Shown here: positions 52,110-64,000 of the stretch, in pieces | How the letters are laid out: the number at the start of each line of letters is the position of its first letter | How positions within the stretch are numbered: the stretch's first letter is position 1 | Source of the DNA: an alpha proteobacterium U9-1i | GTDB lineage: Bacteria > Pseudomonadota > Alphaproteobacteria > Caulobacterales > Aquidulcibacteraceae | NCBI GenBank assembly: GCA_000974665.1 | Contig: BBSY01000001.1 | Coordinates: 124,001-188,000, forward strand | Reading direction: 5' to 3' | DNA length: 64,000 nt | Made by a program: the position numbers and the translations under genes | The notes under the pieces: model-generated | The model's input: the letters and a program-made list of their open reading frames with translations, nothing else | Databases searched by the model: none | Told to the model about the DNA's origin: nothing

Positions 52110-52520
52110 ATGAGCGCCGTCTCTCACGCATCCTACGCGCCGCTTGCAGGAAAGCAGCTGAAGGTGCTTGTCGCCGATGACGTAGCGGGCAACCAAATGG
52201 TGATGCAGGCGATCCTGGCGCGCGCCGGCTGCAGCGTCGTGGTGGTAGACAACGGCGCCGCCGCGATCGCCGAGTGCGCGCGTGAGACGTTTGACGTCGT
52301 CCTGATGGACATGCGCATGCCCGGCATGAGCGGGCTTGACGCGGTGCGCGCGATCCGGTCCGAAGAGCAAGCAACGGGGCGCGCGCGCGTCCCTATTCTG
52401 ATGTGCAGCGCCGCTCCCGAGCACGCGGCGGAAGCCGGCGAGGCTGGGGCCGATGGTTACGTCACAAAGCCAATCACGCCGCGTGGACTGATCGCGCAAA
52501 TCGCGACGACGCTCACCTAG
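52110..52520 (+). CDS. Single-domain response regulator
   Basis: This 136-residue protein is one receiver domain without an output domain. The acidic pocket is Asp23-Asp24 in VLVADDVAGNQ, the phosphoacceptor is Asp67 in LMDMRMPGMSG, and Lys120 is in VTKPI. Ser100 replaces the usual Thr/Ser switch residue position. No histidine kinase is adjacent. Its stop overlaps the convergent pectate lyase stop by four bases. Confidence 0.92.
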   Translation: MSAVSHASYAPLAGKQLKVLVADDVAGNQMVMQAILARAGCSVVVVDNGAAAIAECARETFDVVLMDMRMPGMSGLDAVRAIRSEEQATGRARVPILMCSAAPEHAAEAGEAGADGYVTKPITPRGLIAQIATTLT

Positions 52521-53866
52521 GTGCCGCGCGCGCGCGCGCCGCTGTCGAGCACATCTGGGCGGCGCGGCGTCATGTCGTGGAGATTCCAATCTTCGGGATT
52601 GAACGCATGCCGCGTTGGCGCGGGATGCGGGTAGCCGCCAACACGCGCCTCGTTGTCGATGATTTCGCCACGTCCCTCCGCAACGTTGGCGATGATCCGC
52701 ACATCATGGCCATCGCGATCCCACGGCCGCGCGCCGGCATTGGCCAATGTGTAACGTTGGACGTTCTCAGCGGGCATCGCCGTCAGGCCCTCAGGCCAGA
52801 ACGGCGCGCGGCGCAGTTGGATGATGCGGGCGGACGAGGTCGTATAGCGGCCAAACATCGGCAGCGGCTCGCCAATGCGGTCAACGGCGATGTTGTCTCG
52901 GCCGAAAAATTCCAAATCGCCGTAGCCGCCAATCATCAGGAACGCGAGCGGCGATGGCGTGGAGGGGCCCGCCCTCAACACGTTGCCAACCGCCACCATT
53001 TGCCCATTCTGGAACGGCACAGCGCCCCATTCCTCCGCCATCAGATTGTAGTGCAGAGCCCGCTGACCCGGATCGTAGATAAGATTGTTGATGATCGCGC
53101 CGTGCACGCCGCCTTTGAACATCGGGCTGCGCTCATAATTGTGCGCGTAGACGTTGGCGTAGATCAAAATATCGGCGACGTTGTCGTGGATCAGCGAACC
53201 CTTCGAATGCTCGAACTTCGCGTGCGTGGAATCCGCGAGGCCTTCAGCGAGAAGGTTGTGTGAGAAGGTGATGCGGTGCGAGGTGCCCGCGCGCCATTCC
53301 TCCGGTGTTGAGCCTGTAAAGCGCGGGCCAGAAGCTGAGAGGTTTTCGTCGGTCGCCCACGTCAATGAGCAATGGTCAACGATGACATTATAGGCCGATT
53401 GCGTGGAGATCGCGTCCTCATCCCAACCGCTACCGCGCGCCTGCTCAGCCGAGCCGGGCCGGATACGGATGTGCTGCACGATCACGTCGTGGGTGGCGAT
53501 ATCCATACCGCCACGAATGAAGGTGATGCCCGGCGATGGCGCGGTTTGGCCGGCGATGGTGACGAAGGGCTCTGTGAGACGCAGCGTGCGGCGGTTGAGA
53601 TCGATCACGCCGCCCACCTCGAACACGATGATACGCGGGCCCGCCGTTTCCATCGCGGCGCGAAACGACCCGGGACCCTCGCCATTGAGGTTGGTGACCC
53701 GGATGACCTGCCCCCCACGCCCGCCGCCGGTGGTGGCGGCCCACCCGACCGCGCCAGGAAACGCAAGCTCCGGCGCCTGAGGCGTTACGGACGGCGGCTG
53801 CGCCACCGAAATCGGGGTCAATGCAAGCGCCAACAGGCCCGCCAACGCCAATTTGAACCGGCTCAT
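52517..53866 (-). CDS. Pectate lyase, exported
   Basis: This 449-residue protein resembles polysaccharide lyase family 1 enzymes, which cut de-esterified pectin by beta-elimination and leave unsaturated ends. A signal peptide covers residues 1-23 (LALAGLLALALTPISVAQ). The beta-helix includes GRGGQVIRVTNLNGEGPGSF, IRIRPGSAE, and VIVDHCSLTWATDENLS, with the Ca-binding Asp; YERSPMFKGG follows near the expected catalytic Arg. A TGACACCGGT half-palindrome lies about 60 bases upstream. It is divergent from the hydratase-like gene. Confidence 0.9.
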   Translation of the reverse strand: MSRFKLALAGLLALALTPISVAQPPSVTPQAPELAFPGAVGWAATTGGGRGGQVIRVTNLNGEGPGSFRAAMETAGPRIIVFEVGGVIDLNRRTLRLTEPFVTIAGQTAPSPGITFIRGGMDIATHDVIVQHIRIRPGSAEQARGSGWDEDAISTQSAYNVIVDHCSLTWATDENLSASGPRFTGSTPEEWRAGTSHRITFSHNLLAEGLADSTHAKFEHSKGSLIHDNVADILIYANVYAHNYERSPMFKGGVHGAIINNLIYDPGQRALHYNLMAEEWGAVPFQNGQMVAVGNVLRAGPSTPSPLAFLMIGGYGDLEFFGRDNIAVDRIGEPLPMFGRYTTSSARIIQLRRAPFWPEGLTAMPAENVQRYTLANAGARPWDRDGHDVRIIANVAEGRGEIIDNEARVGGYPHPAPTRHAFNPEDWNLHDMTPRRPDVLDSGARARGT

Positions 53867-53923: not shown

Positions 53924-53937
53924 TGACACCGGTTACC
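53924..53937. promoter_or_regulatory. Pectin-regulon operator, site 3
   Basis: TGACACCGGTTACC on the plus strand matches sites 1 and 2 (62841 and 62865) in the first ten bases. It lies 58 bases upstream of the pectate lyase start, and 88 bases before the divergent hydratase-like gene, so it could serve both. Confidence 0.7.
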
Positions 53938-54024
53938 TAATAGCTTCAATAGAGGCGAAGACGCGCTCCACCGCAAGGGTCTTGGGAGGCCTCGGAGCGT
54001 CGTAGAACAGAAGGTGCGGCTGTC

Positions 54025-54864
54025 GTGACCGAGACGCGTTCCATAATGGAAGACCCGGCTCAGGTGGCCGCCCGCTTCGTTGAGGCGCGCCGGATGGCGC
54101 GTCCCTTGCCAAATTACCCGGGCGAAATGCCCGCGGATCTCGCCACCGCCTACACTGTACAGGATGCGGCGATCGATCAGTGGGACGACCGTGTCGCCGG
54201 CTGGAAAATCGGCCTGATCGCCGCGCCACTTCGGGTGCGCTTCGGCGCCGAACGCATCGCCGGACCCATTTTCCGCCGCCAGCTGATCGTCGCCAACGGC
54301 GAGCCGGTTGACCTACCAGTCATCGCCGGCGGCTTCGCAGCCGTCGAGGCCGAGTTCGTGTTGCGCATCGGCAAAGACGCGCCAGCGAACAAGTTCGAAT
54401 GGACGGCAGACGAGGCCGCGGAATTCGCTGACGCTTGCTATGCTGGCGTCGAACTCGCGGGCAGCCCTTTCGCCGGCATCAATGATCACGGGCCAGCAGT
54501 GACCGCGTCCGACTTCGGCAACAACGCCGGGCTCGTACTCGGTGCGCCCATCATGGATTGGCGCGACGGCGCGTGGGACGCGTGCGCTGTCGCGTCGTTC
54601 ATCGACGGCGCTCCGGTTGGCAATGGCGGCGCGGCGAGTATTCCTGGCGGTCCAGTAGCAGGGCTTGCGTTCATGCTTGGCAACGGTGCACGGCGGGGCC
54701 GGCCATTGCTGCGCGGACAATTGATTTCGACAGGCGCAACGACGGGCGTGCACCCGATCCGCGCTGGGCAAGCCGCGCGATGCGATTTTGGCCCTTATGG
54801 CACGATTTCCTGCCGTATGGTCGAAGCGCGTCCGCACGCGGGGGTGCGCGCCGCCGGAGCATAA
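54025..54864 (+). CDS. 2-keto-4-pentenoate hydratase-like enzyme
   Basis: This 279-residue protein belongs to the fumarylacetoacetate hydrolase superfamily, closest to 2-oxopent-4-enoate hydratases (MhpD). Motifs are WKIGLIAAPLRVRFG, VEAEFVLRIGKDA (with the metal-binding Glu residues) and GVELAGSPFAGINDHGPAVTASDFGNN, with metal Glu. The start may be the GTG here or ATG 54046. Such enzymes act on 2-keto acids, so it may handle a keto-deoxy sugar acid of the pectin pathway, but none of the standard routes requires it. It precedes the TRAP transporter genes by 47 bases. Confidence 0.85.
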   Translation: MTETRSIMEDPAQVAARFVEARRMARPLPNYPGEMPADLATAYTVQDAAIDQWDDRVAGWKIGLIAAPLRVRFGAERIAGPIFRRQLIVANGEPVDLPVIAGGFAAVEAEFVLRIGKDAPANKFEWTADEAAEFADACYAGVELAGSPFAGINDHGPAVTASDFGNNAGLVLGAPIMDWRDGAWDACAVASFIDGAPVGNGGAASIPGGPVAGLAFMLGNGARRGRPLLRGQLISTGATTGVHPIRAGQAARCDFGPYGTISCRMVEARPHAGVRAAGA

Positions 54865-54911
54865 AAATAGCGCTAAACCAACAAAAACAGGCGCTAGAAC
54901 GGGGAGGAAGA

Positions 54912-55931
54912 ATGAGCACGGACCAGCGCAACACGCGCGGCGCGCCCACGTTTGACCGACGCTTGCTGTTGGCAGGCGCTGGCGTGGCGCTTGTCGGCGG
55001 CGGCGCGGCCGTCGCCGCTAACGCGCATGAAACATTCACCGCCGTCGACGTTCATCCTGGCGATTATCCGACGGTTGAGGCCGTGCGTTGGATGGGCGCG
55101 GAAATCGAACGTGAGACGAATGGACGTATTTCGTTCCGCCAGTATCCGTCAGGCCAACTGGGCACCGAGACGGACACCGTAAACCTTGCACGCTTCGGCG
55201 TGCTTGATATCGCGCGCGTGTATCTGGGCGCGGTCAACAACATGTTCCCCGCCACGCAAGCGCTGGCGCTGCCGTACGTGTTTCGCGACGAAGCGCACAT
55301 GCGGCGCGTCTGCGACGGCGCTATTGGGCACGACATTCTTGCGTCGTTCGAACGCCGCGGGCTCGTGGGTCTCGCCTTCTACGATTCCGGTTTCCGGTCG
55401 ATGTACAACGCACGCCACCCGATTGAGTCACCGTCGCAGATGCGAGATCTCAAGGTGCGCGTGCCGCGGGCCGACATTTTCATCGAGATGCTCGACGCCA
55501 TGGGCGCAAACGCGACGCCGATCCCCTTCGGCGAAGTGTTCACTGGCCTGCAAACGCATTTGATCGACGCCGCTGAAAACAATTGGGCGACGTTCCAATC
55601 CACCCGGCAGTACGAAGTGGCCAGCTATTGGTCGCAAACCGATCATTGCGGCGCGCCTGAAGCGCTTCTGATGTCGAAACGACGCTTCGACGCATTGTCT
55701 TCGTCGGACAAGGATTTGTTCGTCGCGAAAGCACGCGAGTCCGTGCCGGTGATGCGGGCGTTGTGGGACGCAAAGCAGGCAAGCGCCCGGCAAACGGTGC
55801 TCGACGCCGGCGTACACTTTAACCAGGCCGATGTCGCCGCCTTTCGGCGCGCGGTGGAGCCAATGAAGCGCCGCTACATGGCCGACGACGCGATCGCCGC
55901 CATGGTCGCACGCATCGACGCGCACGAATAA
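54912..55931 (+). CDS. dctP: TRAP transporter substrate-binding protein (DctP)
   Basis: The periplasmic binding component of a TRAP transporter captures an acid or sugar acid. The ATG at 54912 follows GGAGGAAG; the frame extends upstream but the product of 339 residues is normal. A twin-arginine-like signal (FDRRLLLAGAGVALVGG) precedes the mature part. LKVRVPRADIFIEMLDAMGA, with the carboxylate-binding Arg, and IPFGEVFTGLQTHLIDAAENN are the DctP signatures. It begins the dctP-dctQ-dctM operon and probably binds a pectin-derived uronate. Confidence 0.93.
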   Translation: MSTDQRNTRGAPTFDRRLLLAGAGVALVGGGAAVAANAHETFTAVDVHPGDYPTVEAVRWMGAEIERETNGRISFRQYPSGQLGTETDTVNLARFGVLDIARVYLGAVNNMFPATQALALPYVFRDEAHMRRVCDGAIGHDILASFERRGLVGLAFYDSGFRSMYNARHPIESPSQMRDLKVRVPRADIFIEMLDAMGANATPIPFGEVFTGLQTHLIDAAENNWATFQSTRQYEVASYWSQTDHCGAPEALLMSKRRFDALSSSDKDLFVAKARESVPVMRALWDAKQASARQTVLDAGVHFNQADVAAFRRAVEPMKRRYMADDAIAAMVARIDAHE

Positions 55932-55945
55932 ATCGGGGGAGAATA

Positions 55946-56449
55946 ATGGCTGCGCTCAAAAACGCCTTCGGCGCGCTCGCGCAAGCGACCACCTTCATCG
56001 CCGCCACATCCTTATGCGTGCTGGTGCTGGTGCTGGCTTGGCAAGTGTTCGGACGCTATGTGCTAAACTCTTCGCCGAGCTGGACGGAGCCGGTGGCGAT
56101 GACATTGATGGGCGTCGCGGCGCTCTTCGGCGCGGCCATCGCCGTGCGCTCTGAATCGCACTTTGCGTTTCCAACTCTGGTTGAAAGTTCACCGAAGCCG
56201 GTTCGCGCCGCGCTCAAAGCGCTCGGACGGTTGATCGCGCTCGTGTTTGGCGTTGCGCTCGCGGGGTTCGGCTTTTTCCTCATTGTGGATTCCTGGGATG
56301 TGCCGATGGCCGGCGCGCCGATCCCCGAGGGCGTTTCCAACATCGGCCTTTGCGGTGGCGGCGCGCTGATTGCGCTGTTCGCGCTTGAGCGACTGTTGTT
56401 CGGCGACGCGCCCGATCCCCACACGGCGCCGGCGGCGCAGGAGAGCTGA
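55946..56449 (+). CDS. dctQ: TRAP transporter small permease (DctQ)
   Basis: DctQ is the small four-helix membrane subunit of the transporter. The 167-residue product has WQVFGRYVLNSSPSWTEPVAMTLMGVAALFGAAIAVR, with the conserved RYVxN and SWTEE-like motif. The gap to dctP is 14 bases and to dctM four bases. It is essential for TRAP function, together with DctM. Confidence 0.93.
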   Translation: MAALKNAFGALAQATTFIAATSLCVLVLVLAWQVFGRYVLNSSPSWTEPVAMTLMGVAALFGAAIAVRSESHFAFPTLVESSPKPVRAALKALGRLIALVFGVALAGFGFFLIVDSWDVPMAGAPIPEGVSNIGLCGGGALIALFALERLLFGDAPDPHTAPAAQES

Positions 56450-56453
56450 GCTC

Positions 56454-57734
56454 ATGGAAATCGCCCTCCTCTTCGGCGTGTTCGCCGTACTTCTCGTGCT
56501 CGGCGTGCCGATCGCGTTCGCACTGTCGGTATCCGCGCTCGCTGCGGTTCTCGCGCTTGGCTTGCCTCCCATCGTGGTGGTGCAGCAGGTGTCTGCGGGC
56601 TTCAACAAGGTGTCGCTGCTGGCGATTCCGCTGTTCATCTTCACCGGCGAATTGATGATGCGCGGCGGCATCTCAGACCGACTGATCGCGCTCGCCTCGT
56701 CGCTCGTCGGCCACCTGCGCGGCGGCCTGGGGCAAGTCAGTGTTGTTGCGTCGACCATGTTCGGCGGCGTGTCGGGTTCGGCGCTCGCCGACGTTTCGGC
56801 CATCGGTCCGACAATGATCCCGCAAATGGCAAAGCGCGGGTTCAGCAAGGATTACGCGGTCGACGTAACCATCTCAGCCGCGCTTGTCGCGTTGTTGTTG
56901 CCGCCATCGCACAACCTCATCTTGTTTTCCGCTGTCGCAGGCGGCGGCGTTTCGATTGCCGACCTGTTCGCGGCCGGCATCGTGCCAGCTTTGATGCTGG
57001 CGCTCAGCGTCATGGGCGCCGCGTACTGGCTAGCACGCGTGCGGGGCTATCCGACTGAGACGTTCCCCGGGTTCGGCGCCATCGCCTCACGCTTCGTGGC
57101 GGCCATTCCCGGACTATTGATGATCTTCGTGATCTTTGGCGGCATCCGCGCCGGCATTTTTACTGCGGTAGAGAGCAGCGCCATCGCCGTTTTGTACGCA
57201 GTCGCCGTAACGTTGGTCGTCTATCGCAGTCTGGGCTGGAAGGATTTCTCCGGCGCGGCCGCCCATGCGGCGCGCGCAGCAGCAACGGTGCTGTTCGTCA
57301 TCGGCGCTGCCGGCGCGTTTGGCTGGCTTATCGCTTATCTTGAGATACCCGGCTTCGTCGTCGAGACGCTGAACGGGATGACGCAAGATAAGAATGTCGC
57401 CTTACTCTCGATGGTTCTCGCTCTGTTGATCATGGGAACGTTCCTCGACCTTGCACCCAAGATCATCATCGTGACGCCGATCTTCCTACCGGTCGCGCGC
57501 GCATACGGCGTCGAGCCATTGCATTTCGGCGTGATCATGGTGCTTGCGGGTGGAATCGGGCTGATTACGCCGCCAATCGGTTCAGTCCTGTTTGTCGGCT
57601 CGGCCATTGGCCGCATTTCAGTCGCCGAAGCGATGAAGTCCATCTGGCCGTTCTATCTCGCGGCGCTGACGGTGCTGCTGCTGGTGACTTATATTCCAGC
57701 GCTATCTCTGGCGCTGCCGGCGGTCTGGCGCTAG
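56454..57734 (+). CDS. dctM: TRAP transporter large permease (DctM)
   Basis: DctM is the 12-helix membrane subunit that carries the solute, driven by a sodium gradient. The ATG at 56454 gives 426 residues. Family features are FTGELMMRGGISDRLIALA, GGVSGSALADVSAIGPTMIP, LLPPSHNLILFS and the late GIGLITPPIGSVLFVGSAIG. Its 3' end overlaps the convergent kdgK by four bases. A transporter for galacturonate, KDG or an unsaturated dimer is likely given the neighbours; the substrate is inferred. Confidence 0.95.
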   Translation: MEIALLFGVFAVLLVLGVPIAFALSVSALAAVLALGLPPIVVVQQVSAGFNKVSLLAIPLFIFTGELMMRGGISDRLIALASSLVGHLRGGLGQVSVVASTMFGGVSGSALADVSAIGPTMIPQMAKRGFSKDYAVDVTISAALVALLLPPSHNLILFSAVAGGGVSIADLFAAGIVPALMLALSVMGAAYWLARVRGYPTETFPGFGAIASRFVAAIPGLLMIFVIFGGIRAGIFTAVESSAIAVLYAVAVTLVVYRSLGWKDFSGAAAHAARAAATVLFVIGAAGAFGWLIAYLEIPGFVVETLNGMTQDKNVALLSMVLALLIMGTFLDLAPKIIIVTPIFLPVARAYGVEPLHFGVIMVLAGGIGLITPPIGSVLFVGSAIGRISVAEAMKSIWPFYLAALTVLLLVTYIPALSLALPAVWR

Positions 57735-58747
57735 CGGCGCACCGCGAGTTCGCCAGCGATCACCGCCTCAAGATCGGCTTCGCGCGCGAGGCCGAAATCG
57801 CCAGGCGTGACATGCTTCAGGCATCCCGCCGCAAGGCCGAGCTTCAGCGCCGCCTCATCGCCCTTCCCTCGCCGCAGGCCATGGATCAAGCCGGCGGCGA
57901 ACGCATCACCGGCGCCGATGCGGTCGACAATTTGGGCGAGACTGGCGGCAGGCGCGTTCCACTGCGCGTCGCGTGCGAACATGGACGCCGCGAGATCGTG
58001 ATGCGAGGCGCTGTGCTGGGTGCGCGCCGTGGCGGCGAGACGCTGCAAACGCGGAAACGCAGCGAACGCGGCATCCGCGGCGTCACGGCCGGGTGCGAAC
58101 GCTTTGCCGAGAATGAGACCGATATCGCGATGGTCGCCAAACACTAGATCGGCCTCGGCCAGAATCTCGCCCAGCAATTTGGGTCCGTCGCCGCGCCACG
58201 CTTCCCAAAGCTTTGCGCGATAATTGCAATCGAACGACACCGTCACGCCCGCCGAACGCGCCGCTCTTGCAGCGTTCAACACGCTCTGCGCCGCTTTCGG
58301 TCCGAGCGCGGCAGTGACGCCAGACACATGCAGCCAACCTGCGCCGGCGAGCGCTGCGCTCCAGTCAATCGCATCGAGCGCGTATTCCGCGAACGCCGAC
58401 GCCGCGCGATCGTAAACGATCTCCGCCGCACGCGGACCGATGCCAGGCGTCAGGAAATACAACCCCATGCGTCCGGGCGCAAAGCTCACGCCGCCGACAT
58501 CCACTTCATAGCGGCGGAGTTCATCACGCGCGGCGCGGCCAAGGGCGTTGTCGGGAACAACGCTCAACATGCGGACGTCGTGGCCGAGTCGTGCGAGCCC
58601 AACAGCGACATTCGCTTCGGCGCCGCCGAACGCCGCTTCTAGATGCGGCGTTTGCAGCAGCAATTCAGCGCCGGGCGCCGCCAAACGGATCAGCAACTCA
58701 CCGAAACAAACGACGTGACCGTCAGACCGCACGCTTTGCCCCTTCAC
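57731..58747 (-). CDS. kdgK: 2-dehydro-3-deoxygluconokinase
   Basis: KDG kinase phosphorylates 2-keto-3-deoxygluconate to KDPG in pectin and uronate catabolism. The 338-residue PfkB-family protein has VVCFGELLIRL, GGAEANVAVGLARLG and the C-terminal signature DRIGAGDAFAAGLIHG, with the catalytic Asp. Its start overlaps the pectinesterase stop (ATGA), so it is in the minus-strand part of the locus. KDPG aldolase is not in the window. Confidence 0.92.
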   Translation of the reverse strand: MKGQSVRSDGHVVCFGELLIRLAAPGAELLLQTPHLEAAFGGAEANVAVGLARLGHDVRMLSVVPDNALGRAARDELRRYEVDVGGVSFAPGRMGLYFLTPGIGPRAAEIVYDRAASAFAEYALDAIDWSAALAGAGWLHVSGVTAALGPKAAQSVLNAARAARSAGVTVSFDCNYRAKLWEAWRGDGPKLLGEILAEADLVFGDHRDIGLILGKAFAPGRDAADAAFAAFPRLQRLAATARTQHSASHHDLAASMFARDAQWNAPAASLAQIVDRIGAGDAFAAGLIHGLRRGKGDEAALKLGLAAGCLKHVTPGDFGLAREADLEAVIAGELAVRR

Positions 58748-59832
58748 GGACGCCAGCCGTCCAAAACACTGTCTCGGCTTATCGCGCGCGCCGCGCTTCG
58801 GCGCAATTGCGGTCGTCTGCGATTGGCGAAAGCGCCTGGACCTTCGCTCGCATACTCACCGAATCTCGCCTCCGTGGGCTGCAGGAACACGCGTACGCCC
58901 TCGCGGTTGGGGTAACCCATCTCGTCCCAGCCATCGGCTGAGATGTGATCGTCCATCCAGCATTCCAGAAACGCGGCCATGCCGAGCGCGCCCGGATCGC
59001 CGTAGCGGCCATCCGCGAATTGGCGCGCAGGGCGCCATGGACGCCCCAACGCAACCGACGCCAACGGAACCTGGGGCTCGCGCGTGAGGCTGCAGCTCTT
59101 GAACACAAGCCCGTAAGCTTGCGTACGCACAGTGCTGGGCACGGCGATCCAACCATGATTGCGTTGCATCAACGGACGGAAACGCGATTGCAATTCGCAG
59201 CGTTCAAAGTAGGCGCAACCGGCGCCGAAAATGAAGTCGACGCTACCGCTGATGTAGCAGTCGCGGAACAAAGCCCTGCCCGCATTGGCTAAGAGGGTGT
59301 CTTGATGTCCGGTAACGCGCACGTTCTCAATCAACGCACGATCCGAGCCTTCGTCCAGCATCAACGCGACTGCTTGCGCGCCGTTCGATCCAGTGCGCTC
59401 GAACTGCGGCGATGCGAGGTCGGCAATGTAATCGAAGGCGTTTGCGACGGTGAGGTTGCGCACGGAGAAATCCGGCGCGCGGACGATCACACTGGCGCAT
59501 CCCCATGTGCCCCACGCCTGCCCGTCCGCACGCGCCATGCCCGCCGCGGCGTTGTAACTCAAAACGCTGGCCGGCCCTTCACCAACCAGATGCACATTTG
59601 CGCGATCGATGACGAGCTTCTCATGATGCACGCCGGCGCCGATGAAAATCCGAAACGGGCGATCACCGGGTGCGGCGGCGATGGCTTCGGCAACGCGGTC
59701 AAACCGGCGGACGCCCGCGACGTTTACACCGACGCTGGCGTCAAACGAGTGACTGTGCGCGGCAGCGATAGGTGCGGCGATCGCACCAACGAAACCCGCG
59801 GCGATGTCTCTGCGTGATGGACGCCAACGCAT
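58744..59832 (-). CDS. Pectinesterase (CE8), exported
   Basis: Pectinesterase removes methyl groups from pectin so that pectate lyase can act. The 362-residue protein starts at ATG 59832, with a twin-arginine-like signal (PSRRDIAAGFVGAIAAPIAAA). The catalytic motifs are GHQDT (residues 175-179) and VDFIFG, with Asp178 and nucleophile Asp199; LGRPWRP supplies the Arg. The beta-helix fold is expected. It lies between kdgK and the TonB receptor gene, separated from the latter by a terminator. Confidence 0.93.
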   Translation of the reverse strand: MRWRPSRRDIAAGFVGAIAAPIAAAHSHSFDASVGVNVAGVRRFDRVAEAIAAAPGDRPFRIFIGAGVHHEKLVIDRANVHLVGEGPASVLSYNAAAGMARADGQAWGTWGCASVIVRAPDFSVRNLTVANAFDYIADLASPQFERTGSNGAQAVALMLDEGSDRALIENVRVTGHQDTLLANAGRALFRDCYISGSVDFIFGAGCAYFERCELQSRFRPLMQRNHGWIAVPSTVRTQAYGLVFKSCSLTREPQVPLASVALGRPWRPARQFADGRYGDPGALGMAAFLECWMDDHISADGWDEMGYPNREGVRVFLQPTEARFGEYASEGPGAFANRRRPQLRRSAARAISRDSVLDGWRP

Positions 59833-59845
59833 GGTGCGCTCCAAA

Positions 59846-59878
59846 GAAAAAAGGGCGCCGGCCTGAGCCGACGCCCCG
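59846..59878 (-). terminator. Intrinsic terminator of the TonB receptor gene
   Basis: On the minus strand GGGGCGTCGGC and GCCGGCGCCC form a stem with one mismatch around a TCAG loop, followed by TTTTTT. It lies 20 bases after the receptor stop and before the pectinesterase start, so pectinesterase may need its own promoter or read-through. Confidence 0.85.
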
Positions 59879-59898
59879 TACTAGGGAGGTCCCCCGCC

Positions 59899-62772
59899 TT
59901 AGTACTTGAAGCGAAGGCCGACGAAATAGGATCGGCCGAAGGCGTGATAGAATGAGGAGCGATCGTCCGGCGTCAGGTACTGATCGTTCACTTCATCGGT
60001 GAGGTTCAAGCCTTCGAGCGTGAAGGTGAGATTCTCGTTCACGGCCCATTGCGCGGCGGCGTCAATGTTGGTCGTGCCGGCGGTTGCTTCCGTAAGGTTG
60101 GCGTCTCGGCCTGGGATGTTGGTGAGGTAGTCGCTGCGGTGCGCCGCAGCGATCCGTGCGCTCAATTGTTCGCCTTCGTAGTAAAGCGTGGCGTTCCAAC
60201 TTTCGCGCGACAGACCAGTGAGATCGCCTTGAGCGACAACGGCGCCCGTTGAGTTGAGATAGGTGATGTCTGACTCAACGCTGGTGTAGTTGCCCGTGAA
60301 GCCGAAATCCGAAAGCACGCCCGGCAGGAACGTGAACGGCAATTGGAAGCCGACTTCGTATCCTTCAACAGGCCCGCCAGGCGTGTTGACGGCTTTGTCG
60401 AAGTTCCAGGTTTGGTTCATGCAACCGGCCACAACGCCGCCGCACGCAAACAAGCCGAACGCATCCGGCAGACCATCAGGGTTTGCCGCATAGTTCGGGA
60501 TCACGGTGCGCGACGTCGTCACAAGCGTGTCGATTTCCTTGCGGAAGAATGCGAGCGACACCAGCGATTCCGGCGCGAAATACCATTCGAACGACAGGTC
60601 GTAAGACGTGGCCCGGAAAGGATCGAGATCCGGATTGCCGACCGTGATCGTGCGGTTGGCGCCTGAAACACTGACGCTTGGCGCGGGGTTGAGATTGCCG
60701 AGGCCCGGACGCGCCATCACTTCAGCGGCCGCGAAGCGAACGAGGAACGAATCCATCGGCTCAAACACCATGTTGAGCGATGGCAGCGTGTCGGAATATT
60801 CGCGCTGCGTCTCAACCGTGCCGACAAATGGCGCGGCCGCGACTGGCACAAATCCCTTCGCCGTCTGATCCGTCTCGACTTGGCGAACACCGATATTGCC
60901 GCGGAAGCCGACGCCGGCGATTTCCGTGTCCCAATCGGCCTGCACGTAATAGCCGAGATCCACTTCCTCAACCGAGCGATTGTTGCCAAGCGCAGGGATG
61001 CTCGAAAGCGGATAGCGCGCCGGGTTGTTGAGATCGAGCGCGAGCGTGGCGTTGAAGAAATCCGGGCTCGCCCAGCTGTTTTGGTTGCCGACTGGCGCCG
61101 ACAGCGATCGACCCGTGAGCTCTACAAGGCGAGCGTATGAATGCGGCGACACCGCCGGCGTTTGCCCAGTGCACGCTTCCGCGTTGCTGGCCGCCGTGAA
61201 GAGCGCCGCATTGCAGCCGGGGCTGGTGAGGCCGGCCTGAAGCGGATCGCGACGCTGTTCTGTCGTATCGAACTCGAAGCGCTTCCAGTTCAGACCGCCC
61301 GACAATGTGAAGGACGGGCTGAGATCGTACTCCAGATTGACGTAAGCCGTTGTGTAGACGTTGTCCGCCGTTTGCGGACGCAAGCGAATTTGCGACAGAG
61401 TCCAGATACCCGGGTCGGTGACATTCGTGGAGCCGTAATTGAAGATCGGCAGACGGTTGTCGGTGCGATAATCGTACGAGAAGAACGGAATGTTGTTCCG
61501 GTCCCACAGGATCGTGGTTTGTATCGGGTTCTCGTGCTCGGAACTTGCGTAGCCAACAACGCCGTTGACACGGAAAACGTCGCTGAAATCGTGTTCGAGG
61601 CTCAACGTCGCTTGCTGGAACACGGTTGAAAGAACGTCGAAGCGCGCTTCCGATCGAATGTCCGTGCCGGTTGTCGCGGGCGCCGACGCGCAATTGCGGA
61701 AAACGCCGTAGGTCAGCGTTCCGCCTTGGACCGCCGCATCGCTGACGCACATGCCCTGAGAGCCTGTCGCATCATTGGACGAGCTGAACGACGGCACTTC
61801 AAGGAAGATTTCCGAACGCTCGGCATCGAACTTCGCATAGAGCAAGTCGAGGCCGATGTCGGTGTTGTCGGATGGACGCCATTGAAACGAAGCCGTCGCG
61901 CCGGTGCGTTCTTGCTCGTGTTCGTAGATGTCGTAGCGCGGAATCCGCGGGTGAAACGCGTCGTTGACCTGGGTAATGGTCGGCGATGCGACGATGGGGA
62001 AGCCTTGCGGCGCCGTCGTGCCAAAATTGTTGCTTGTATTCCAGCGCACCGTGCTCGCGCCCTCTTCGAGCGCGTCGCGATGGCTCCAGGCCACGGAGAA
62101 CAACGCGCCGAAATCGCCCCAGGTGTTGGAGACCAAGAATGCGCCGCGCGGATCATAGCTTTCAGACAGATCATTGTAGCCAACCTGCCCCGAGCCCGCG
62201 AGCGTGAAGCCTCGATAGTCGAACGGCCGGCCCGTGCGCAGATCAACTGTCGCGCCCAACGAGCCCTCTTCCGTTTCCGCCGAAGACGTTTTGCGCACGG
62301 TGATGGCGTTGAAGAGATCCGATGCAAATACGTTGAAATCGAAACCACGGCCGCGATTGGTGCCGCCGGCAGCGTCGGTTCCGCCCGCGGTGGAGATCGC
62401 CTCCATGCCGTTGATGCGAATGCGGGTGAAGTTCGAGTCGAGGCCGCGCACCGAGATTTGACGCCCTTCTCCCGCATCGCGGGTAATGGCCACGCCGGGG
62501 ATGCGTTGGATCGATTCCGACAGATTGGCGTCCGGCATGTCAGCGATATCTTCGGCAACGATCGCATCGACGGCGCCAACTTCGGCACGCTTAATATCGA
62601 TGGCTTGCGCCAGCGAGCGCCGGAAACCGGTAACGACGATTTCCTCTTCCTGCGCGCTCGGCTCAGCGTCCTGCGCGGCTGCCGTCCCGCCCATCAGGCC
62701 CGCCGCCATGGCCGCGAGCGAGATCCCGAAGGACATAGTTTTCCTGTGGTTCGACTTCCGATTCCGCGACAT
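59899..62772 (-). CDS. TonB-dependent receptor
   Basis: This 957-residue outer-membrane receptor imports a large ligand with energy from TonB. ATG 62772 follows GGAGGAAG; the longer frame to 62865 would run over the operators. A signal peptide ends near AAAQD. The TonB box is EEEIVVTGFRRSL. The plug has DMPDANLSESIQRIPGVAITRDAGEGRQISVRGL, and the barrel ends in YFVGLRFKY, with the terminal aromatic residue needed for BamA. It belongs to the large carbohydrate-type group of Caulobacterales and similar bacteria. The ligand is probably an oligogalacturonide, given the neighbours. Confidence 0.95.
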   Translation of the reverse strand: MSRNRKSNHRKTMSFGISLAAMAAGLMGGTAAAQDAEPSAQEEEIVVTGFRRSLAQAIDIKRAEVGAVDAIVAEDIADMPDANLSESIQRIPGVAITRDAGEGRQISVRGLDSNFTRIRINGMEAISTAGGTDAAGGTNRGRGFDFNVFASDLFNAITVRKTSSAETEEGSLGATVDLRTGRPFDYRGFTLAGSGQVGYNDLSESYDPRGAFLVSNTWGDFGALFSVAWSHRDALEEGASTVRWNTSNNFGTTAPQGFPIVASPTITQVNDAFHPRIPRYDIYEHEQERTGATASFQWRPSDNTDIGLDLLYAKFDAERSEIFLEVPSFSSSNDATGSQGMCVSDAAVQGGTLTYGVFRNCASAPATTGTDIRSEARFDVLSTVFQQATLSLEHDFSDVFRVNGVVGYASSEHENPIQTTILWDRNNIPFFSYDYRTDNRLPIFNYGSTNVTDPGIWTLSQIRLRPQTADNVYTTAYVNLEYDLSPSFTLSGGLNWKRFEFDTTEQRRDPLQAGLTSPGCNAALFTAASNAEACTGQTPAVSPHSYARLVELTGRSLSAPVGNQNSWASPDFFNATLALDLNNPARYPLSSIPALGNNRSVEEVDLGYYVQADWDTEIAGVGFRGNIGVRQVETDQTAKGFVPVAAAPFVGTVETQREYSDTLPSLNMVFEPMDSFLVRFAAAEVMARPGLGNLNPAPSVSVSGANRTITVGNPDLDPFRATSYDLSFEWYFAPESLVSLAFFRKEIDTLVTTSRTVIPNYAANPDGLPDAFGLFACGGVVAGCMNQTWNFDKAVNTPGGPVEGYEVGFQLPFTFLPGVLSDFGFTGNYTSVESDITYLNSTGAVVAQGDLTGLSRESWNATLYYEGEQLSARIAAAHRSDYLTNIPGRDANLTEATAGTTNIDAAAQWAVNENLTFTLEGLNLTDEVNDQYLTPDDRSSFYHAFGRSYFVGLRFKY

Positions 62773-62840
62773 CTCTTCCTCCCGGTCCGCCTTCCCCCTG
62801 ACGCGCCCGCTTTGCAAGCCGCGCCGGGTCGGATCTTTTT

Positions 62841-62854
62841 TGACACCGGTGTCA
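62841..62854. promoter_or_regulatory. Pectin-regulon operator, site 1 (perfect palindrome)
   Basis: TGACACCGGTGTCA is a perfect 14-bp palindrome, 69 bases upstream of the TonB receptor start. It shares TGACACCGGT with site 2 and with the site before the pectate lyase gene. The form fits a LacI- or GntR-type repressor. Confidence 0.85.
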
Positions 62855-62864
62855 ATCGAAGACA

Positions 62865-62878
62865 TGACACCGGTGACA
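62865..62878. promoter_or_regulatory. Pectin-regulon operator, site 2
   Basis: TGACACCGGTGACA repeats site 1 with one mismatch in the second arm. The starts of the two sites are 24 bases apart, about two helical turns, so two dimers could bind on the same face of the DNA. Confidence 0.8.
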
Positions 62879-62989: not shown

Positions 62990-63745
62990 TCAGCGCGCGA
63001 GCCAGCCGCCATCGACGGGAATGATCGCGCCATGCACGTAGTCAGACGCGTGCGATGCGAGAAACACTGCTGCACCTGCGAGATCGGTCGCCTCGCCCCA
63101 GCGGCCCGCGGGAATGCGCGCGAGAATGTCGCGGTTGCGGGTTTCGTCGGCGCGCAACGCTTCCGTGTTGTCGGTCACCATATAGCCAGGGGCGATGGCG
63201 TTAACGTTGACACCCTTCGCGGCCCATTCGTTCGCGAGCAGCCGCGTGACGCCGGCAATCGCACTCTTGCTTGCGGTGTAGGAGGGCACACGGACGCCGC
63301 CTTGAAACGATAACATCGACGCGATGTTGATGATCTTACCGCGCCCTTTCGCGATCATGTGCTTGCCTGCGGCTTGCGCAAGAAAGAACGCCGACTTGAT
63401 GTTGACATTCATCACCGCGTCCCAATCGGCCTCTGTGAAATCGACTGAGTCCGCGCGGCGGATGGCGCCGGCGTTGTTGACCAAAACGTCCACGCCGCCC
63501 AGCGCAGCGATTGCGCCCGCGATGACGCCTTCAACCGGCGCAATGCTGCTTAGATCCGCGCGCTCATAGTGAAAGCGGCGACCAAGCGCTTTGACCTCCG
63601 CTTCGGTTTCCAAGGGCACGGAGGTGCCGGCGGCGGCAATGTCGGCCCCCGCTTGCGCGAGCGCGAGCGCCAACGCTTGCCCGAGCCCCTTGTTCGCGCC
63701 GGTGACGAGGGCGACGCGGCCCGAAAGATCAAACAAACCGCTCAT
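62990..63745 (-). CDS. kduD: 2-dehydro-3-deoxy-D-gluconate 5-dehydrogenase
   Basis: KduD reduces 2,5-diketo-3-deoxygluconate to KDG with NADH. The 251-residue SDR protein starts at ATG 63745 as [22 protein letters not shown], with the cofactor glycines. [10 protein letters not shown] follows, and YTASKSA holds the catalytic Tyr and Lys. The end has [17 protein letters not shown], as in KduD. Its start overlaps the kduI stop by four bases (ATGA). KduI and KduD are the two successive steps for the unsaturated uronate. Confidence 0.94.
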
Positions 63746-64000
63746 TTGAGTTGGCAAATATCGAGCACGTTCATGTCGGTATAGTCGAGATTCTCGCCAC
63801 CCATCGCCCAGATGAAGGCGTAAGCGCTTGTGCCAGAACCCATGTGGATCGACCAAGGCGGCGAGATCACTGCTTCTTCGTTGCCGATGATGATGTGGCG
63901 CGCCGAGTCGGGCTCACCCATGAAGTGAAAGACGCGCCCGTCGGGGCCGTCGAGGTTGAAGTAGAAGTACACTTCAGAACGTCGATCGTGCAGGTGCGGC
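63742..64000 (-). CDS. kduI: 5-keto-4-deoxyuronate isomerase, C-terminal part
   Basis: KduI turns 5-keto-4-deoxyuronate into 2,5-diketo-3-deoxygluconate. Only about 85 codons are in the window; the start lies beyond base 64000. The visible part contains [15 protein letters not shown] and [22 protein letters not shown], with metal-binding His and Glu of the cupin fold. The frame is open to the edge and ends ICQLK. It overlaps kduD by four bases. Confidence 0.93.

Follow-up and report, generated by a model that had tools for sequence, protein, structure and literature searches.

The stretch of DNA analysed here (the window; 64,000 nucleotides, C1:124001-188000 of a 4.05 Mb genome) contains what reads, from its genes, as a pectin utilisation locus. 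On the minus strand, kduI, encoding 5-keto-4-deoxyuronate isomerase (63742..64000 and on to C1:188593; NF002091, 386 bits, cut-off 250), is followed by kduD, encoding 2-dehydro-3-deoxy-D-gluconate 5-dehydrogenase (62990..63739; TIGR01832, 395 bits, cut-off 338.85), and by the genes for a TonB-dependent receptor (TBDR; 59899..62772, with an inferred ATG start at 62772; TIGR01782, 661.7 bits, over the cut-off), a pectin methylesterase (58744..59832; PF01095, 2.9e-32) and a PfkB sugar kinase (57731..58747; PF00294). The last scored 291 bits, under the cut-off, against the kinase part of the NCBIfam KHG/KDPG aldolase-kinase model and is a probable 2-keto-3-deoxygluconate kinase. Also on the minus strand, the gene at 52517..53866 encodes a pectate-lyase-like protein, for which a Pfam search gave no match at 1e-3; it scored 404.8 bits with NCBIfam PelZ (under the cut-off of 840) and matched the PDB pectate lyase 9buj with an E-value of 9.6e-21. 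Divergent from it, on the plus strand, a gene for a hydratase-like protein of the 2-oxo-acid hydratase family (54025..54864; no match in a Pfam search and weak NCBIfam scores, HpaH at 2.4e-10 being under the cut-off) precedes the TRAP transporter genes for DctP, DctQ and DctM (54558..57734; PF03480, PF04290 and TIGR00786, over the cut-off). Translation of DctP probably begins within, not at the start of, the open reading frame (ORF) given for it.

A preliminary description of this DNA had proposed that shared operators of one regulator join uptake and polymer cutting. The sites that it named are present. The perfect palindrome TGACACCGGTGTCA (62841-62854, no strand assigned), of which this is the sole exact copy in the genome, lies 68 bp before the TBDR ATG, and a near copy, TGACACCGGTGACA (62865-62878, plus strand), stands in tandem 24 bp from the first and 92 bp ahead of the ATG. 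The third site, TGACACCGGTTACC (53924-53937, plus strand), occupies the divergent gap, 57 bp ahead of the lyase ATG (53866) and facing the hydratase-like gene at 54025; it is three mismatches off the palindrome TGACACCGGTGTCA, and the TTGACA within it can be taken for a -35 box directed at the hydratase gene.

The regulator gene had been placed outside the window, and the search then suggested, for a LacI or GntR gene near other matches, led to a LacI-family gene on the minus strand (lacI; C1:188648-189775), the first gene beyond kduI and 648 bp past the window end. The gene order is thus lacI-kduI-kduD-TBDR-pectinesterase-sugar kinase. The protein carries an N-terminal helix-turn-helix (PF00356, 5.3e-20, at 41-86) and a periplasmic-binding-protein-like ligand domain (PF13377, 3.3e-38, at 208-370); these LacI and periplasmic-binding-protein models scored over the cut-off, and no IclR model was among the matches. 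A profile of its orthologs has CcpA and PurR among its PDB relatives, and the helix-turn-helix is almost invariant across 17 orthologs. GntR was set aside as the regulator type, a LacI gene being present in the locus. Another copy of TGACACCGGTTACC (C1:188618-188631) lies between kduI and lacI, at a predicted kduI promoter of the form TTGCAC-17-TACCAT, and TGACACCGGTGAAC (C1:189753-189766), merely a half-operator, lies ahead of the likely lacI start. By inspection, a sensor-kinase-like and response-regulator-like gene pair (L010:5805-8056) directly follows lacI.

LacI operators are described in passages of PMC4052901 as mostly CG-centred even palindromes lying 30-140 bp upstream of starts. The TBDR site, TGACACC/GGTGTCA, is such a palindrome at 68 bp, with its near copy at 92 bp; the lyase site, at 57 bp, is inside this range, and the kduI site is nearer, at 24 bp. 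Several operators of the locus are imperfect palindromes. The kduI, lacI and pckA sites, the sharing of the 53924 site with the hydratase and TRAP genes and the conserved asymmetry described below go beyond the preliminary description.

Recurrence of the operator word in the genome and in relatives

Window statistics taken alone are mixed. With up to three mismatches the 14-mer matched three times against 1.89 expected, and three or more matches arose in 31 of 100 shuffles; with up to one mismatch the 10-mer matched eight times (both TBDR sites being scored on each strand) against 2.38 expected, a count reached in 1 of 100 shuffles. For the whole genome, expectations were taken from Markov models of orders 1-4, with 136 kb of this genome as training sequence. 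It had been cautioned that the motif might be frequent at unrelated genes. This does not hold for the 14-mers: TGACACCGGTGTCA occurs once where 0.01-0.02 copies are expected, and TGACACCGGTTACC twice where 0.004-0.006 are expected. The bare 10-mer has about six background matches, equal to the chance prediction.

The exact 10-mer TGACACCGGT has 13 matches at 12 places (the palindromic site being scored twice), and 3.7-5.6 matches per genome are expected. Five of the places fall within 11.8 kb (C1:177924-189766), where 0.035 are expected (binomial P ~2e-10, post hoc), and one lies before pckA on C2. According to a crude ORF picker, four of the other six are within ORFs, a fifth coincides with an ORF's initial codon, and for the last no ORF was chosen; since 3.7-5.6 matches are expected by chance, these six are background-like. 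The 10-mer by itself is therefore not rare, and the 11.8-kb cluster is not background-like. The exact words are confined to the pectin cluster, pckA and the six background-like places, and degenerate sites were probed at one to two mismatches only. At one mismatch, TGACACCGGTTWCC returned just the two places already known; TGMCACCGGTRKCA matched at both TBDR sites, at pckA and at C2:1780781, and its reversed control matched six times. Matches had also been anticipated ahead of uronate genes, and this was borne out for kduI-kduD (and lacI); none of the 12 places precedes a KDPG aldolase or GH105 gene, families that were not searched by name.

Recurrence beyond this genome was followed in two samples of relatives. 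Among 61 genomes (our own and 60 relatives, which are related and so not independent observations), TGACACCGGTTWCC is present in 26 of the 27 with a close LacI ortholog (identity of at least 47%) and in two of the 34 without (Fisher 8e-14). In ten of the 61 there were no LacI relatives beyond distant paralogs (identity of the best match 37-41%), and these genomes were scored as ortholog-free. In the two ortholog-free genomes with TGACACCGGTTWCC, both copies are within ORFs (L165 and L166). The lone ortholog carrier without TGACACCGGTTWCC, G053, has a protein 52% identical.

The second sample comprises 80 named loci, the best 80 of 566 from relatives in an alignment-based LacI search of genome contigs; a contig search with the single LacI protein as query confirmed nothing. 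The loci include Hyphomonadaceae, Caulobacter, Phenylobacterium, Brevundimonas, Sphingomonas, Niveispirillum, Nitrospirillum and Steroidobacter, and are a non-random sample because they were picked by likeness to the present LacI. In these best 80 loci TGACACCGGT matched 273 times, in 78 of the 80 (it is absent from L094 and L120), with 42 of the matches coming from 21 palindromes, each scored on either strand. In the same loci the reversed word gave 2 matches and two permuted words 19 and 2. The word occurs within 600 bp upstream of lacI in 52 of the 80 and downstream of it in 63, and often lies ahead of kduI, kduD, hydratase, TBDR and lyase genes. Neighbours of lacI (tblastn at 1e-8, some matches being weak) were kduD in 71 of the 80, kduI in 56, a kinase of the same type in 49, a counterpart of the hydratase-like gene 54025-54864 in 47, a receptor in 45 and a lyase in 28.

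Some of these loci differ in gene content. In L067 and L111, the glucuronate isomerase UxaC (over the cut-off) and proteins of the altronate/galactarate-dehydratase and fructuronate-reductase types adjoin lacI and the operators. In several relatives in which kduI was not found, an isomerase of the RpiB/LacAB type lies near kduD (L062:11092-11733, L095:11039-11680 and L142:827-1465; PF02502 and NF006753 by test on the first, the other two alike by eye). This isomerase, which we take to be DhuI-like, is likely a non-homologous substitute for the uronate isomerase. In one genome (G023), the lacI ortholog matches as two overlapping pieces in different frames (L157:439-1361) and may be broken or misassembled.

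A related site upstream of pckA

In our genome, TGACACCGGTAGCA lies upstream of pckA (PF00821) on C2. Within the genus, pckA is preceded by a site of the form TGNNACCGGTNNCA in 16 of the 18 genomes that carry the LacI ortholog versus 1 of 11 examined ones that do not (Fisher 3e-5), the lone carrier without lacI (G015) being a genome 65% complete. An earlier subset (30 loci of 38 pckA matches) had given 14/15 with lacI and 1/9 without under a stricter test, and 15/15 and 1/9 by TGNNACCGGTNNCA. In the full table G024 became a carrier, G026, in which the contig ends inside the gene, was left out, and G003 and G004 did not become carriers. The last two have lacI, yet the pckA copy detected in each (identity to the query 74 and 72%, respectively) is siteless, which slightly lowers the odds of the pckA reading; a second pckA copy in G029 (73% identical), siteless too, resembles theirs. 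Outside the genus the site was found in none of seven genomes examined, though G038, G050 and G054 carry lacI. Through the variant operator, gluconeogenesis is probably among the targets in this genus, and such a link would tie plant-polymer feeding to gluconeogenesis.

It is possible, if not the explanation that we favour, that a LacI regulator of central metabolism other than the pectin one (of the PckR, GapR, GluR or CceR kind) acts at the pckA site, its operator merely being similar. Passages of PMC4052901 place pckA under LacI regulators in other Alphaproteobacteria, PckR being a predicted activator of pckA, and CceR is described in part of PMC5507952 as sensing gluconate-6P. Consistent with a separate regulator, TGCTACC and TGCCACC halves are commoner than TGACACC at pckA sites, and no site was found at pckA in G003, in G004 or, outside the genus, in the three examined genomes with lacI. 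Against it stand the co-occurrence of the site with the pectin lacI in the genus (16/18 with lacI versus 1/11 examined without) and the recurrence of the same TGACACCGGTAGCA form ahead of a second type of pectate lyase in the genus and of TBDR genes in the named loci. The published alphaproteobacterial regulators, LacI proteins too, are global, a class marked by sites at many glycolysis and TCA genes; the present regulator is linked to pectin and has pckA as a single candidate target. A reach into central metabolism has a counterpart in the soft-rot KdgR, which extends to ppsA according to the portion of PMC6127512 on its regulon.

The lyase sites of this form are at the gene start in five genus relatives (L173, L176, L178, L182 and L183, near 1501; GGCA in L183); the lyase is PF09492 by test on L173, the other four being alike by eye. 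Our own PF09492-type lyase gene (C2:1767760) lacks the exact word and has just TGCTACCGGTTACC over the likely start codon, which was left uncounted.

The candidate LacI-family regulator

We consider it highly probable that the words are operators of the LacI-family repressor encoded 0.65 kb past the window end, most likely a KdgR-like local repressor. This reading is drawn because lacI is adjacent to and in line with kduI-kduD-TBDR; because five sites fall in 11.8 kb, among them a CG-centred even palindrome at the published distance; because TGACACCGGTTWCC co-occurs with the ortholog, the word and its reversed control give 273 and 2 matches in the named loci and words flank lacI; and because operators precede pectin and uronate genes, the pckA site co-occurs with lacI and the helix-turn-helix is near-invariant. 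The LacI gene and the further sites thus lend support to the proposal that one regulator joins uptake and cutting.

In the absence of pectin breakdown products, a dimer would bind TGACACC/GGT-type sites overlapping or near promoters and repress the putative transcription units kduI-kduD, TBDR-pectinesterase-kinase, the divergent lyase and hydratase-TRAP genes, and lacI itself (autoregulation). An intracellular pectin catabolite, our best guess being an unsaturated uronate or 2-keto-3-deoxygluconate, would free the repressor from these sites, and uptake, cutting and breakdown would be turned on jointly.

Rather improbable is the alternative that the words are operators of another regulator (a response regulator, an unseen GntR protein or a paralogous LacI) and that the adjacent lacI is a mere look-alike. 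The sensor-kinase/response-regulator-like pair just behind lacI would fit it, as would the distant LacI paralogs of relatives, one of which (40% identity, in L059) is flanked by TGACACCGCTGTCA and TGACAGCGCTGTCA, at 1466 and 2518. That arrangement suggests that LacI paralogs are distinguished by the bases flanking the central CG. A CG-centred palindrome is, however, of the LacI type, and the word lies close upstream or downstream of lacI in most named loci. Moreover, the site tracks the close LacI ortholog (26/27 versus 2/34), 10 of those 34 genomes carrying only distant paralogs. Chance recurrence of a GC-rich word, for which the expectation of 3.7-5.6 10-mers per genome, the six background matches and the unremarkable window count at three mismatches might speak, is refuted by the 273 versus 2 matches in the named loci and the 26/27 versus 2/34 co-occurrence, as also by the clustering of 5 of 12 places, the expectation of ~0.02 or fewer 14-mers and conservation over 80 loci, and its probability is negligible.

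The repressor reading invites comparison with known systems. KdgR of soft-rot enterobacteria belongs to the IclR family. The enterobacterial KdgR regulon, as given in part of PMC6127512, comprises pectate lyases, kduI, kdgK and transport, and also ppsA and pykF. The present system is alike in uniting lyases, kduI, kduD, kdgK and transport, as judged here by gene content and operator position only, and differs in its regulator, which combines the helix-turn-helix of LacI proteins with a domain like that of periplasmic binding proteins and has no IclR model among its matches. Because the two are LacI and IclR proteins, the present system would work like KdgR without being KdgR. Passages of Ravcheev et al. 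2014 (PMC4052901) describe LacI uronate regulators named KdgR, UxaR, UxuR and ExuR for the glucuronate and galacturonate pathways; these are LacI proteins mostly with CG-centred even palindromes, as here, and that source mentions six uronate LacI groups, among which the present ortholog group might fall. In Xanthomonas, the LacI repressor SuxR controls a TonB receptor and catabolic genes, a likeness to the present system, and acts on sucrose rather than pectin, as set out in part of PMC1790865. Passages of the same source describe XCC0120 as a TBDR adjoining a pectin methylesterase and a pectate lyase, and name no regulator or operator for that locus. In the literature consulted the palindrome TGACACCGGTGTCA was not found, and no LacI pectin regulon of Caulobacterales or Sphingomonadales was recognised. 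Thus the kind of system is known and the present gene set looks newly mapped, the less usual parts being the pckA link and the promoter-register rule. For many Caulobacterales and Sphingomonadales, and some other Proteobacteria with TonB receptors, the analysis names a candidate regulator, operator and targets for pectin use, no operator having been met for them in the literature consulted.

Operator asymmetry and promoter register

Comparison of the named loci indicates that the operator is kept in asymmetric, target-specific forms, the palindrome being just one of them. Ahead of kduI, TGACACCGGTTACC was found 18 times on the same strand and never on the opposite one, and ahead of kduD four times and never, respectively. 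The hydratase gene is preceded by the TTCC-type form TGACACCGGTTTCC (36 same-strand, 0 opposite), with four and three copies of the TACC type. Many TBDR genes have the palindrome plus a reverse-oriented half-variant copy (ending GACA, ATCA, AGCA or GGCA), and others have TACC or further variants. Close operator pairs are spaced by 30-35 bp in 15 of 21 cases and by 24-25 bp in three; pairs at 24 bp like the window's own also occur in the relatives L062 and L064.

The variable half-site form tracks its register relative to predicted -35 and -10 boxes. Of 101 TACC operators, 58 are preceded by a TTG whose first base is exactly 13 bp away; for 28 of the 57 TTCC operators this distance is exactly 7 bp. 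The background is ~1 per offset, and the pairing is close to exclusive: a TTG at -13 goes with TACC 58:1 and one at -7 with TTCC 28:2. No -35 was recognised at 29 of the 101 TACC and 15 of the 57 TTCC sites, and the counts overstate independent events because the promoters are predicted and many are mutually orthologous. In the first register, with a 17-bp spacer, TACCNN forms the predicted -10 box; the window's kduI site (TTGCAC-17-TACCAT) is of this register by its predicted promoter. In the second, the operator falls within the spacer, and 27 of 30 have TA where the -10 box begins. In the third and weakest, to which the 53924 site probably belongs, the operator's TTGACA is the -35 box, and 14 of 158 asymmetric sites have CAAT where the -10 box would be. 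A tie between half-site and promoter register would offer a simple, testable reason for the operator of a dimer staying asymmetric in evolution.

The predicted pckA promoters differ in arrangement. The operator ends 43-44 bp before the predicted TTGAC -35 in 14 of the 16 lacI-bearing carriers and 35-36 bp before it in two, one of which is our genome, at 36 bp. Since the operator is upstream of the predicted -35, its position at pckA would be activator-like rather than blocking. Tentatively, and with more doubt than confidence, one LacI protein may block the pectin genes from core-promoter operators and activate pckA from an upstream site. At the former, the kduI half-site would form the -10 box, the operator would fill the hydratase -35/-10 spacer in many relatives, and in the third register it would supply the -35. 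Were this so, PEP carboxykinase would be on without pectin and down when pectin-derived pyruvate and triose phosphate arrive, and a local repressor of polymer use would also serve as a gluconeogenesis switch of the Cra/PckR kind. Many pckA promoters of the genus (loci L196-L220) also have a recurrent GTCACAgTGG-like stretch between the operator and the -35 box, perhaps the site of a second regulator.
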